From: Verrucomicrobia bacterium LW23
GTDB taxonomy: Bacteria; Verrucomicrobiota; Verrucomicrobiia; Methylacidiphilales; UBA1321
Direction of reading: 5' to 3'
Assembly (NCBI GenBank): GCA_003054695.1
Contig: QAZA01000003.1
Span: 62,001-126,000 of the forward strand
Length of the DNA stretch: 64,000 nt
Made by a program: the position numbers and the translations under genes. The notes under the pieces were generated by a model, which saw only the letters and a list, made by a program, of their open reading frames with translations, made no database searches and had not been told where the DNA came from. This document shows, in pieces, positions 48,045 to 52,572 of the stretch; positions within the stretch are counted from its first letter, which is position 1, and every line of letters begins with the position of its first letter.

Positions 48045-48818
48045 TTGCCGAACCGAACCACCGATGCGACGCCTGTGAAACCGCAAACCCCACTTCCCGA
48101 TCCCGGCGCGGATGCTCTCCGGCGCGTGTTTGAGGAACTGCGCGATGCCTCGCTGGCGGGTGACGAAGCGAAGGTTTGCGGGATTCTCCGAGGGCTGCTG
48201 CCGGATGCCGAGCGCATCCGGGCAGCCGTCGCGCGGCCGGATTTCACCAGGTACAAGCCGGGGCCCGGGGAGGCTGAGGAAGGCAGGGACTTCGATCCCA
48301 ACGCGGCCTTCGACGACGCCGTGTTTCATTGTCCGGCACGGGGCTTCGCCCTGGCGGCCCTCGACACAAAGGCGATGCTGCGGGCCATGGACATCACCCT
48401 GGCCGGCACGCCTGCTGACGCCCGCCCGGGCGAGGTGCGCGTGCAACGTCTCTCCTCCGCCGAGCTCGCTCAGCCGCAGGATCAAACGTTTGCGGCAAGG
48501 GCCTTCGCCCGCGAGATGCACCTGCGGAACATGGTTTGCCCGTTACGCGCCGACATCGCCTTCTACCTGGTCTGGTTCCTCCAACCGCGCTCGGGACGCA
48601 AAGTCCCCTTCCCCATCCACGTCCTTTACTGGGACGGTCGCGGCTGGAGCGCCCTCTACCAGGCCTGGTGCAACCCCTGGGCACCTGGCTGGAACCGGCC
48701 CGTTGCCCGCGTGTTGCACCTGCTCTTTCCCCTCATGTCCTGTATCGGCGTTCCGGCAGCGCTGATCGACTATGTTTATCGCGATCCCGAAGTGCCTGCG
48801 CCGCAAAGCGTTGCCTGA
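48045..48818 (+). CDS. Protein of unknown function
   Basis: The frame starts with TTG at 48045, about 10 nt after a GAAGGAG ribosome site; no in-frame ATG occurs before codon 111. The 257-residue product starts with a Pro-rich tail and then a helical region (ADALRRVFEELRDASLAGDEAKVCGILRGLLPDAERIRAAV). A middle part with FHCPARGFALAALDTKAMLRAM follows, and then an apparent amphipathic or membrane-proximal C-terminus (ADIAFYLVWFLQPRSGRKVPFPIHVLYWDG, VARVLHLLFPLMSCIGVPAALI). No family recognised. It follows the sulfatase by 30 bp and overlaps the convergent amidohydrolase-like gene by 43 bp. Confidence 0.6.
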   Translation: MPNRTTDATPVKPQTPLPDPGADALRRVFEELRDASLAGDEAKVCGILRGLLPDAERIRAAVARPDFTRYKPGPGEAEEGRDFDPNAAFDDAVFHCPARGFALAALDTKAMLRAMDITLAGTPADARPGEVRVQRLSSAELAQPQDQTFAARAFAREMHLRNMVCPLRADIAFYLVWFLQPRSGRKVPFPIHVLYWDGRGWSALYQAWCNPWAPGWNRPVARVLHLLFPLMSCIGVPAALIDYVYRDPEVPAPQSVA

Positions 48819-49963
48819 TTCTGTTCTATCCGCATCCTCGGGCAGGCCGCCAGCGCGCCTTCGGAGCGAATCCAGGCCTGCAGAGCGGCCGGCGCTGAGC
48901 TCAGCACAAAGGAGCTCCCCGGGTCCTGCGCATCCCAGCGCGGCGCGCCGCTGGCGTGGATGACGAGGCGTGAGCCGGAAACCGAGCGCAAGAGGCGCCA
49001 GAACTCCCCGGGCGGATCCACCGGCGTAATGGCGCCGGAGCCAAAGCGGAAATGCCGGCCCACCACCTCGCTGGGCAACTCGCGCAGCCACGGGCATTCG
49101 GAGCGCAGCGCTTTCCAGTTTTTGTCGAAGCGCCACAGGTAAGGCGGCAGCCAGGCCACGCCGGTGCCCATGCCCAGCACGGTAAGCTCCGGAAAATCCA
49201 CAAACGCGCCACTGGTTACCAGGCTGGTAAGGTGCGCCGTAAATACGGATGTACGCGCCACGCGCATCTCCGCCATCGTGCCCGGCCAGCCGCTGGGCGT
49301 GGGCGGATTGCTGGTGCCCATCCCCTCCGTGCCGGAGACGATCGCCACCGCCAGCCCGCACTCCGCCGCCGCCTTAAAAATGGGCCGGAAGTGCGCGTGC
49401 CCATAGGGCATACGCGCACCGGCGGGCAGCAGCACCTGCACCATGCGGGGGTGCCGCGCGGCGCGATGGATCTCCCGCACCGCTTCCTCCACGTGCTGCG
49501 TGGCCACGGTAATGCTGCCAAACAGGCGCGCATCCGCCTCCAGAAAGCGGTCGGTGATCCACCGGTTAACGGCCCGCGCCACCTCCACCGGGTAGTCCAC
49601 ATCGCCGTAGGTTGCAATCAGCGGGGAATCGTAGCAGCTGATGACGGCAGCCGCCAGGTTATGGGCCTCCAGCCAGTCCCGGGCAAGCACGTCGGGGTGG
49701 GGAAACGCCGCCGCCCCCACGGTGCCCGGCCCCTGCATGGCTGCGGAATAGGCCGCGGCGTCGGGATCGTAATACATCGGCCGCACAACCAGGCCGGCCG
49801 GAGTGTGGCCGCCCGGGGCGCGCAGCCAGCGCTCGTGCCAGGTGGCGCTGAGGTAGGGCAGGATGTCTTCGTCCGCCTGCCAGCGCACGTGCACGTCCGC
49901 GTCTATAGTGGGGATGGAGGCTGCCGTCGTTAGTGAGGGATTCATCGTCGTGGTCGTAGTCAT
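48776..49963 (-). CDS. Amidohydrolase_2-like protein lacking most metal-site residues
   Basis: The 395-residue protein belongs to the amidohydrolase-2 (ACMSD-like decarboxylase/hydrolase) superfamily and aligns along its length with the adjacent paralogue (50435-51583). Compared with it, metal and catalytic residues are replaced: the His pair of AHPTHEG becomes VSGTEG (Val209, Thr212), the Glu of LLEGG becomes Gly266, and the SSDFPHWD motif reads ASGAPRWD (Gly339, Arg342). Only the N-terminal DADVH is kept. It is therefore probably a catalytically silent partner or has a new role. Its start overlaps the Rieske gene stop (ATGA); its 3' end overlaps a convergent gene by 43 bp. Confidence 0.85.
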   Translation of the reverse strand: MTTTTTMNPSLTTAASIPTIDADVHVRWQADEDILPYLSATWHERWLRAPGGHTPAGLVVRPMYYDPDAAAYSAAMQGPGTVGAAAFPHPDVLARDWLEAHNLAAAVISCYDSPLIATYGDVDYPVEVARAVNRWITDRFLEADARLFGSITVATQHVEEAVREIHRAARHPRMVQVLLPAGARMPYGHAHFRPIFKAAAECGLAVAIVSGTEGMGTSNPPTPSGWPGTMAEMRVARTSVFTAHLTSLVTSGAFVDFPELTVLGMGTGVAWLPPYLWRFDKNWKALRSECPWLRELPSEVVGRHFRFGSGAITPVDPPGEFWRLLRSVSGSRLVIHASGAPRWDAQDPGSSFVLSSAPAALQAWIRSEGALAACPRMRIEQNQATLCGAGTSGSR

Positions 49964-50433
49964 TCCGTTTCCTGGGCGCCGCCCTTGCTGCGCAGTTCAA
50001 TCCAAAGTTCGCCGTCGCGGAGAGTCACCGGGTAGGTGCGTACCTTCAGGCGCTCATCAAACACCGCCCGGCCGCTTTCCAGGCTAAACTCCCAGCCGTG
50101 CCACGGGCAGCGCAGGATGGTGCCCACCTGCCCCCAGTTGTACTCGCCCGTGCGCGCGGCGGGCGCGTTGGTGCCGGTTAGCCGCCCGCGACAAAGTTCC
50201 GCCCCCCAGTGCGGGCAAAAATTGCGGAGTGCGTACCAGCGCCCGCCCACGTTAAACACGCCAATGGAGATCTTCCCCACCGCCACAATGCGCCGCCCGC
50301 CCTCGGGGATATCCGCCGCCGCACCCACGCAGATCGAATCCGGCAGCGCGCCGGATCTTGACGTCTCGTCCGCTGTGGAACGCGGCCCGCTCGATGTCCC
50401 GGCTAATGTTGCTGACGCCGTTTCCGTTTTCAT
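49960..50433 (-). CDS. Rieske [2Fe-2S] protein
   Basis: The ATG at 50433 is separated by one base from the stop codon of the upstream amidohydrolase, which favours it over a TTG at 50457. The 157-residue protein has an unstructured N-terminus and one Rieske domain with the two cluster boxes: CPH (Cys73, His75) in NFCPHWGAELC, and CPWH (Cys109, His112) in LRCPWHGWEF. It has no signal peptide, so it acts in the cytoplasm as an electron carrier or redox subunit. No oxygenase catalytic subunit (with a mononuclear iron site) is nearby; its partners are presumably the two amidohydrolase-like proteins. Confidence 0.92.
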   Translation of the reverse strand: MKTETASATLAGTSSGPRSTADETSRSGALPDSICVGAAADIPEGGRRIVAVGKISIGVFNVGGRWYALRNFCPHWGAELCRGRLTGTNAPAARTGEYNWGQVGTILRCPWHGWEFSLESGRAVFDERLKVRTYPVTLRDGELWIELRSKGGAQETE

Positions 50434-50434
50434 G

Positions 50435-51583
50435 TCACGCAGCCTCCGCAACAGCAACGGCCGACTCCAGCGCGGCCAGCTTCCTGCCGTAAAGGCGGCG
50501 CGCGTTCTCCCGCAGGATGCGCCGCTTCAGCTCCGCCCCTGTTTTGCCGGGCAGGATGCGGAAGGGATCATCAAAGTCCCAGTGCGGAAAATCGCTGGAG
50601 AACATGATTTGCGTGGCGCCGCCAATCATCTCGTACGTGTGCAGCAGATCCTCGGTTGCTTTCGGCTCTTCGATCGGCTGTGTGGTATAGAAAAACTGCC
50701 TCTTCAGGTAGTCGCTCGGCTTCTCCTTCAGCAGCGGCATCTCCGCGCGAAGCCGCTTCCAGTCGGCATCCAGCTCCCACATCAGGGGCAGCATCCAGCT
50801 AATGCCCCCTTCCAGCAGCACAAACTGAAAGTCCGGATATTTGGCGAACACGCCCTCGCACACCAGGCTGGCCGCGTGGGTTACCGCATTGGCCGCCAGG
50901 CCGGTGTGGAACTCCAGGTAGGTGGCCGGATAACCCGCCGCTGTCGGTGGAGGCGCTATCCCTTTGCCCTCGTGCGTGGGGTGAGCCGCAACCGGCAGGC
51001 CGCATGCCGCGGCGGCCTCGTAAATGGGGTGAAACAGCCGGTTGCCCAGCGGCAGGCAGCTGACAGTGGGCACGATAATCTCCACCACGCGCGGGTGGCC
51101 GGCCCAGCGCTCGATCTCCCGCACAGCCAGCGCGGGATCCTGCGGCGCAAGCGTTATGGCCGCAAGCAGGCATGGGTCCTGAACCACGAACTCGTTCACC
51201 GTCCAGTTATTGAACGCGCTGGCAAGGGCCGCGGCGTAATCGGCATCCGGCAGCGCGCTGAGAAAATAGAAGTTGCCCGTGCAGATGGCCCACTCGATGT
51301 CAAATGGTTCCAGCAAATAGCGCCGCACAGGCGCCGCATGGTTGGCGTGCAGTTGCTCGCCCGGCACGTCACCGTCGGTGCGATGCCCGCCGCCGCGCTG
51401 GGAGAAGCCGAACTGGGCCGGACCCACATAGCCTCGCGCATAGCGCTCGCGATAACGCTGAGGCAGGTATTTGGCGATCGACTCCCTGTCGGGCGGCGAG
51501 GAGTGAACTTCGATATCGAACACTGGATATCCCAGCCGGGGATGGGGCACGGCGTTGGGGCGTGCCGGCGGATAGGTGGACAT
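50435..51583 (-). CDS. Amidohydrolase_2-family metal-dependent hydrolase or decarboxylase
   Basis: The 382-residue TIM-barrel protein has the metal-site residues of the family: His27 in FDIEVH, His201 and His204 in AHPTHEG, Glu258 in LLEGG, and Asp331/His334 in SSDFPHWD. The superfamily includes ACMSD-type decarboxylases and hydrolases of aromatic or lactone compounds. It is the first gene of a three-gene minus-strand operon with a Rieske protein and a paralogue lacking the metal site. An AraC-type regulator is divergently encoded 89 bp away, which suggests substrate-induced expression. The substrate is unknown. Confidence 0.9.
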   Translation of the reverse strand: MSTYPPARPNAVPHPRLGYPVFDIEVHSSPPDRESIAKYLPQRYRERYARGYVGPAQFGFSQRGGGHRTDGDVPGEQLHANHAAPVRRYLLEPFDIEWAICTGNFYFLSALPDADYAAALASAFNNWTVNEFVVQDPCLLAAITLAPQDPALAVREIERWAGHPRVVEIIVPTVSCLPLGNRLFHPIYEAAAACGLPVAAHPTHEGKGIAPPPTAAGYPATYLEFHTGLAANAVTHAASLVCEGVFAKYPDFQFVLLEGGISWMLPLMWELDADWKRLRAEMPLLKEKPSDYLKRQFFYTTQPIEEPKATEDLLHTYEMIGGATQIMFSSDFPHWDFDDPFRILPGKTGAELKRRILRENARRLYGRKLAALESAVAVAEAA

Positions 51584-51672: not shown

Positions 51673-52572
51673 ATGTCAATCGCCGCCCAGCCCGCGCCCT
51701 CGCTCACGCCCCACCAGTGGGCCGGCCTGCGCTCGGAGCTGCTCTGGGTCTACGACCATGCGCCCGCCTCCCTCACCGTGGATCACACCTACCAGCAGGG
51801 CCACTGGGCCTGGTACCTGCGCTCCGGCCACGCCCGGATTCAGCGGCCGCAGGGGCGAGCCATGACCGTACGGGCCGGCACCTGGGTCTTTCCGCCGCGG
51901 GAGCGCCTGCGCATTGAATTCTCGCCCGATCTCACGCTCCTCTCCGTGCATTTCCTCTGCCAGTGGCCCGGCGGCAACAACGTGTTTACGCGGGCGGAAC
52001 CCATCACCATGCCCGGCGCCGACTGCCCGGAGCTTCTGCGCCGGGCCGAGCGCCTGGAGCGCCTGACCCGCCGCCACTTCCCCCACGTGGGCCGCGGCTT
52101 TCAGCAGCAGCTGGAGAAGCCGACCGACTACCCACTCTTCCTGCGCCTTCAAAACCACTTTTGCGACTGGCTGGGAACCTGGTTCAGCGCACGCACCCAG
52201 CGCGGCGCCCGCGTTACCGAGCAACTGCGCACTCACGACAACCGCGCGCTCAGCATCCTGCGCCTGCTGAACGAGGCGCCGCTGGAGCACAAGTTCCCCG
52301 CCGCCCAGCTCGTCCGCGACATGGAGCTGAGCGAGGTGCACCTCACCCGCCTCTTCGTCGCCAGCTTTGGCATAAGCCCGGCCAAGTACTGGGAGCAGCG
52401 CCGCATGGAAACCGCGCGGCGCCTGCTGGAGGCCAGCGCCCTTTCGCACAAGGAGATCGCCTTCCGCCTTGGGTTCCGCTCCGCCGCCAACTTTTCCGTG
52501 TGGTTTGGCCGCCTTCAAAACGCCACGCCCGGCCAGTACCGCCGGGCCCAGGCGACCACCGGCCGGGCGTAG
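51673..52572 (+). CDS. AraC-family transcriptional regulator
   Basis: The ATG at 51673 starts MSIAAQPAPSLTPH; longer frames overlap the divergent gene and are not supported. The 299-residue protein has an N-terminal cupin-like effector domain (about 20-110) and a C-terminal AraC domain with two helix-turn-helices: LVRDMELSEVHLTRLFVASFGISPAKYWEQRRM, and SHKEIAFRLGFRSAANFSVWFGRLQNATPGQYRR, with the family ending. It is divergent from the amidohydrolase-Rieske operon, which it probably activates. The 89-bp gap contains CTTTC repeats with roughly helical spacing (about 51627-51658), possible contact sites. Confidence 0.92.
   Translation: MSIAAQPAPSLTPHQWAGLRSELLWVYDHAPASLTVDHTYQQGHWAWYLRSGHARIQRPQGRAMTVRAGTWVFPPRERLRIEFSPDLTLLSVHFLCQWPGGNNVFTRAEPITMPGADCPELLRRAERLERLTRRHFPHVGRGFQQQLEKPTDYPLFLRLQNHFCDWLGTWFSARTQRGARVTEQLRTHDNRALSILRLLNEAPLEHKFPAAQLVRDMELSEVHLTRLFVASFGISPAKYWEQRRMETARRLLEASALSHKEIAFRLGFRSAANFSVWFGRLQNATPGQYRRAQATTGRA

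Follow-up and report, generated by a model that had tools for sequence, protein, structure and literature searches.

A predicted heteromeric, Rieske-linked oxygenase in Verrucomicrobia bacterium LW23 with a partner subunit whose metal site has eroded

The closest characterised system to the locus described here is the 2-aminoisobutyrate hydroxylase of Rhodococcus wratislaviensis, which consists of AibH1H2 with AibG and AibF. AibH1H2 is an α2α′2 heterotetramer in which AibH2 is catalytic, with the metal ligands D25, H27, H211, E265, D337 and H340, while AibH1 carries one metal and is required yet non-catalytic (PMC7782822). AibH2 D342 lies in the second sphere, and AibH1 mutants in the Site-0 ligands are insoluble, so that the role of that metal could not be tested there (PMC10401708). 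K282, in the AibH1 loop WKFDK, forms a bond to AibH2 D342 next to the metal site (PMC12141560); K282 and Y287 of AibH1 are assigned here by matching to the PDB chain numbering. A residue supplied by a neighbouring chain has a precedent in the same superfamily, the PDB title of 4ifk (ACMSD) naming an essential arginine from the neighbouring subunit. Enzymes of this kind are amidohydrolase-related dinuclear oxygenases (AROs), whose hallmark is a small Rieske gene next to the gene for the PF04909 protein (PMC10811679).

The window analysed is a stretch of 64,000 nucleotides from Verrucomicrobia bacterium LW23, and all LW23 coordinates refer to it. Three head-to-tail genes lie on its minus strand in the order P2, P3, P1 (Table 1). 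The P3 reading frame extends from 50457 to 49960, with a likely ATG at 50433, 1 nt past the P2 stop, and its own stop overlaps the P1 start as ATGA. Its product matches the Rieske profile in Pfam with CxH...CxxH intact, giving the PF04909 genes on either side the small Rieske neighbour that marks AROs. The start codons of P2 and the divergent AraC-family regulator are 89 bp apart, and no reductase gene adjoins the trio. On the other side, a 257-aa open reading frame at 48045-48818 (+) has no Pfam match and converges on P1, its 3′ end overlapping the P1 gene by 43 bp. The LW23 genome also holds two further ARO genes (L077 on G000:C45 and L078 on G000:C39), each beside its own Rieske gene; a second PF04909 gene was not seen near either.

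Table 1. Features of the P2-P3-P1 region and residues discussed in the text (window coordinates).
Feature	Position	Strand	Basis
P1, PF04909 subunit with eroded metal site, predicted AibH1-like role, 395 aa	48776..49963	-	ORF, profile match, family alignment, AlphaFold model
P3, small Rieske [2Fe-2S] ferredoxin, motif CPH...CPWH intact	49960..50457	-	ORF, Pfam
P2, predicted catalytic PF04909 subunit, AibH2-like, 382 aa	50435..51583	-	ORF, Pfam, alignment
AraC-family regulator, ATG at 51673, divergent from P2	51673..52572	+	
P1 D23-V-H25, kept beta-1 ligand pair	49889..49897	-	
P1 V209; His ligand in relatives (AibH2 H211)	49337..49339	-	
P1 G266; ligand Glu (AibH2 E265)	49166..49168	-	
P1 residues 275-299, YLWRFDKNWKALRSECPWLRELPSE, where conservation in the P1 lineage is highest; contains K281, the counterpart of AibH1 K282	49067..49141	-	
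P1 G339; ligand Asp (AibH2 D337), Asn in both orthologues	48947..48949	-	
P1 R342; ligand His (AibH2 H340), Arg common to all three orthologues	48938..48940	-	
P2 E25; almost all relatives have the ligand Asp	51509..51511	-	

Both P1 and P2 match PF04909 (59.3 and 120.9 bits, respectively, against a cutoff of 26.4), and NCBIfam has no family for either. By sequence, their closest PDB entries are 8SM6-8SM9, which are AROs, and the two AibH1H2 subunits. The AlphaFold model of P1 (pLDDT 87.7) has SfbO (8sm6) as its top PDB match, at a TM-score of up to 0.94, and compares with the AibH1H2 chains at 0.82-0.87 (target-normalised). The relatives of this operon are amidohydrolase-related dinuclear (Fe2 or Mn/Fe) oxygenases (AibH1H2/AibG, SfbO) and not hydrolases, and the original prediction's amidohydrolase label does not hold in the sense of a hydrolase. 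Because the PDB sequence and fold matches are AROs and AibH1H2, and because PF04909 and Rieske genes are paired here, the operon is best read as encoding a predicted oxygenase.

The proposed catalytic copy is P2, whose E25, H27, H201, E258, D331 and H334 align in that order with the six AibH2 ligands and whose D336 occupies the second-sphere position. Five of the six are identical to the ARO set and Glu replaces Asp25, a substitution found among 129 family sequences only in P2 and in its orthologue in genome G169 (L074 8419-9555). Thus P2, which had been taken as intact, is nearly so: five ligands are canonical and the sixth is a Glu for the usual Asp. As a carboxylate, Glu25 could still coordinate metal. 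The same position is the ligand Asp in about 90 other catalytic AROs, and the copy in genome G440 has Asp too. In the mechanism that we propose, P2 would be the TIM-barrel subunit that carries out catalysis, at a dinuclear (Fe2 or Mn/Fe) centre, and P3 would serve as its Rieske electron donor.

P1 shares 31% identity with P2 over 331 residues in pairwise alignment. The family alignment places its V209, T212, G266, G339 and R342 opposite P2 H201, H204, E258, D331 and H334, exactly as first reported, and the coordinates given for the P1 reading frame are likewise correct. The H204/T212 pair was rejected as a ligand position, as relatives carry Gly, Ala, Ser, Thr or other residues there and it does not belong to the AibH2 ligand set; its earlier listing as part of the metal site was mistaken. 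The same list omitted the beta-1 ligand pair D23/H25, which P1 keeps. In total, four of the six ligand positions are lost (V209, G266, G339 and R342), with D23, H25 and second-sphere D344 retained.

Chance or base-calling error is unlikely to lie behind these substitutions. The V209 codon is at least two bases from any His codon and that of G339 at least two from any Asp or Asn codon, the residues flanking G266 differ too, and the beta-5 and beta-6 ligands are near-universal elsewhere in the family. P1 is alone among the 129 sequences in having no beta-6 Glu; every other member with data there keeps it, and its beta-5 residue is His or, rarely, Tyr, Phe or Gln. With four positions gone and an Arg in one of them, metal binding by P1 would most likely have been lost altogether.

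Alternatively, D23, H25 and other residues of P1 might still bind one structural metal, as Site 0 of AibH1 does. These two residues and D344 are kept and could hold a metal weakly, and AibH1 needs its own metal for solubility (PMC10401708). However, the mononuclear site of AibH1 has the ligands D24, H26, H201, E255 and D328, of which just the first two survive in P1 (D, H, V, G and G at the five positions), and an Arg stands at the neighbouring beta-8 position; we regard a structural metal as improbable, though it is the least improbable of the alternatives. A P1 that functions like AibH1 yet departs from its ligand set would most likely be a variant of that type and not a plain member. Since the AibH1 Site-0 ligand mutants are insoluble (PMC10401708), loss of the metal might destabilise P1.

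A phylum-wide whole-genome search returned two P1 orthologues, with 52% (G169) and 44% (G440) identity by BLASTP, from two other families of the class to which LW23 belongs. In G169 (L074) the catalytic copy is followed by the Rieske gene, the P1-like gene and an AraC-type gene. For G440, one contig ends with the catalytic copy and Rieske gene and the P1-like gene begins at the end of another (L075, L076, L116); the orientation fits, and by joining the two contig ends we infer the same gene order as in LW23. The order of catalytic copy, Rieske gene and partner therefore recurs in G169 and, across this join, in G440. An AraC-type gene adjoins the module in LW23, G169 and G440, which suggests an inducible catabolic step. 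In G440, AraC-type regulators flank the joined module on both sides (L075 506-1648 and L116 1721-2656).

No further member of the P1 lineage was found in 384 more genomes drawn from the class. A scan of genome contigs with P1 gave 58 relatives, none of this lineage, and a plasmid collection gave no closer relative, all matches being below 60% identity and the best among those listed about 35%. As additional sampling of the class yielded no extra members, the P1 lineage is rare, and the conservation counts below rest on its three sequences.

In both orthologues the beta-8 Asp has become Asn and the beta-8 His has become Arg, and the beta-5 His and beta-6 Glu are still present. P1 has gone further: the beta-5 His and beta-6 Glu are also gone and Gly stands instead of Asn, with the Arg of R342 common to all three. 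As orthologues without the beta-8 ligands still keep the beta-5 and beta-6 ones, P1 is, on the sequence evidence, the end of a stepwise loss of ligands under purifying selection. The original prediction, which was to be refuted by homologues in the same position that keep the ligands, is borne out at beta-8 alone, where the loss recurs, and not at beta-5 and beta-6.

The reading frame had also been judged not to be decaying randomly, and in this respect the sequence comparisons agree. Between P1 and its G169 orthologue dN is 0.47 and dS 1.85, with divergence of 0.40/0.31/0.59 at the three codon positions; the P2 pair has a dN of 0.37, near the P1 value, although dN/dS is a rough guide since dS is saturated in most comparisons and near saturation for P1/G169. 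P1 retains 113 of the 154 residues (73%) common to its two orthologues, the same measure for the other two members being 78% and 62%. In near-invariant columns of the family it holds most scaffold positions and its losses fall mainly in the active site.

These results bear directly on the possibility that P1 is a decaying duplicate, an early pseudogene still open by chance. Such a gene could well have lost four of six ligand positions and more than its orthologues, and the C-terminal helix motif of P1 is indeed poorly kept. Nevertheless, the frame is open at full length and under purifying selection comparable to that on P2, it is coupled to the Rieske gene by ATGA, its scaffold residues are kept with the losses centred on the active site, and a beta-8-silent partner occurs in two other families, all of which makes decay very unlikely. 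Marginally less probable still is that P1 is an enzyme in its own right, whose former active site now catalyses a reaction without metal. Some PF04909 members have been reported without a cofactor (PMC10811679) and several pocket residues of P1 have changed together, but P1 is tied to P2 and to the Rieske gene, and the pocket residues vary among the three orthologues, a pattern more in keeping with loss than with a new, conserved active site.

A positive role for a silent partner is suggested by the loop that carries the RFDKN motif. In the P1 lineage, residues 275-299 have 21 of 25 columns invariant against a background of 32%, a concentration reached in none of 5000 permutations, whereas the P2 lineage has no significant conservation peak (P 0.10). 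Lys is present in 32 of 32 silent partners and Lys-Asn in 31, as against 7 and none, respectively, of 29 paired catalytic subunits (AibH2, outside these 29, has Tyr), and Lys-Asn is found in 51 of 68 unpaired AROs, although sequences inside one lineage are not independent in such counts. The Lys is missing from the solved ARO SfbO and from several unpaired relatives, and some AROs thus do without it. In the tree the P2 lineage lies close to this Lys-less clade, and the reciprocal pattern may therefore be inherited in part.

With Lys-Asn in the silent partners and in none of the paired catalytic copies, the pattern suggests a split of labour in which one copy keeps the metals and the other keeps the loop and would offer it in trans. 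P1 would complete the dimer interface with P2, and its K281 could reach D336 in the P2 beta-8 loop, as AibH1 K282 reaches AibH2 D342. The near-constancy of Lys-Asn in silent subunits also suggests why they persist, namely for a specific trans contact.

In phylogenetic trees the P1 and P2 lineages form one clade each (SH-aLRT 100 for both; 99.8 for P2 in a second tree), and the tree in which the two are sister copies was no worse than the unconstrained one, and slightly better. Second subunits with an altered metal site fall in three clades, namely that of AibH1, a Chloroflexi/Thermomicrobia group and the P1 lineage. The AU test rejected joining the AibH1 and Chloroflexi groups (p 5e-6) and weakly rejected joining P1 with the latter (p 0.022); P1 and AibH1 are separate in the best tree, but their joining was not rejected (p 0.075), and all these p-values are weakened by groups having been picked after the tree was seen. 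We prefer three separate duplications as the explanation, less firmly for P1. More tentatively, and on balance short of an even chance, heteromeric AROs may have arisen at least three times by duplication with a reciprocal split of metal site and Lys-Asn, P1 being a fully metal-free end point that reaches into the active site of its sister.

Within the AibH1 clade, partners from Actinopolymorpha, Pseudonocardia and Microlunatus (L027, L031, L032, L048, L050 and L055) have changed ligands of their own, the beta-1 His being replaced by Gln or Arg and the beta-5 His by Tyr, Phe or Gln; from the alignment, this is a separate erosion of a partner metal site. At each of the loci L008 and L016, from Peribacillus and Ammoniphilus, three PF04909 genes occur with two Rieske genes, as an AibH1H2-like pair beside a third ARO.

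Taken together, the sequences, gene order, conservation, steps of erosion and predicted fold favour, with a probability of roughly 0.68, a reading in which P2, P3 and P1 encode a multicomponent heteromeric ARO and P1 would be the non-catalytic and probably metal-free partner, supplying interface and trans loop to P2, to which the putative oxygenase activity would belong. The suggestion of a silent subunit coupled to an active one and a Rieske protein thus survives in its main lines (the trio recurs, P1 is under purifying selection and AibH1H2/AibG is an analogue), while its exact substitutions do not recur. Searches of open-access literature turned up no account of an ARO partner without metal. 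P1 and its orthologues amount to a natural stepwise loss of an AibH1-type Site 0, which makes the need for that metal directly testable.

Compared with known systems, the locus shares with AibH1H2 its two PF04909 TIM-barrel subunits and a small Rieske ferredoxin gene. In AibH1H2 the full dinuclear site is in one subunit and the other is non-catalytic, to which P1/P2 are likened from sequence, and the Lys of the RFDKN loop is kept in the silent subunit, AibH1 and P1 being alike in this. AibH1 has five ligands and a Zn/Mn ion, whereas P1 keeps two of those five, and the gene order differs, being H1-H2-G in the Aib system and H2-Rieske-H1 in LW23, where no reductase gene adjoins. SfbO and other single-gene AROs (8SM6-8SM9) resemble the LW23 proteins in fold, in five of the six dinuclear-site ligands (P2 having Glu for one Asp) and in the Rieske neighbour; for SfbO, one amidohydrolase-type protein plus a Rieske ferredoxin has been described, without a silent partner, whereas LW23 has P1. 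The uncharacterised PF04909 pairs of Chloroflexi/Thermomicrobia (L024, L030, L045, L046 and L047) likewise combine a catalytic copy with an altered copy bearing the KN loop. Their two copies are sisters (support 99) from a separate duplication, in the order H2-H1-Rieske, and the changed beta-8 ligands of the second copies are mostly N..N/H with, unlike in P1, the beta-5 His and beta-6 Glu kept.
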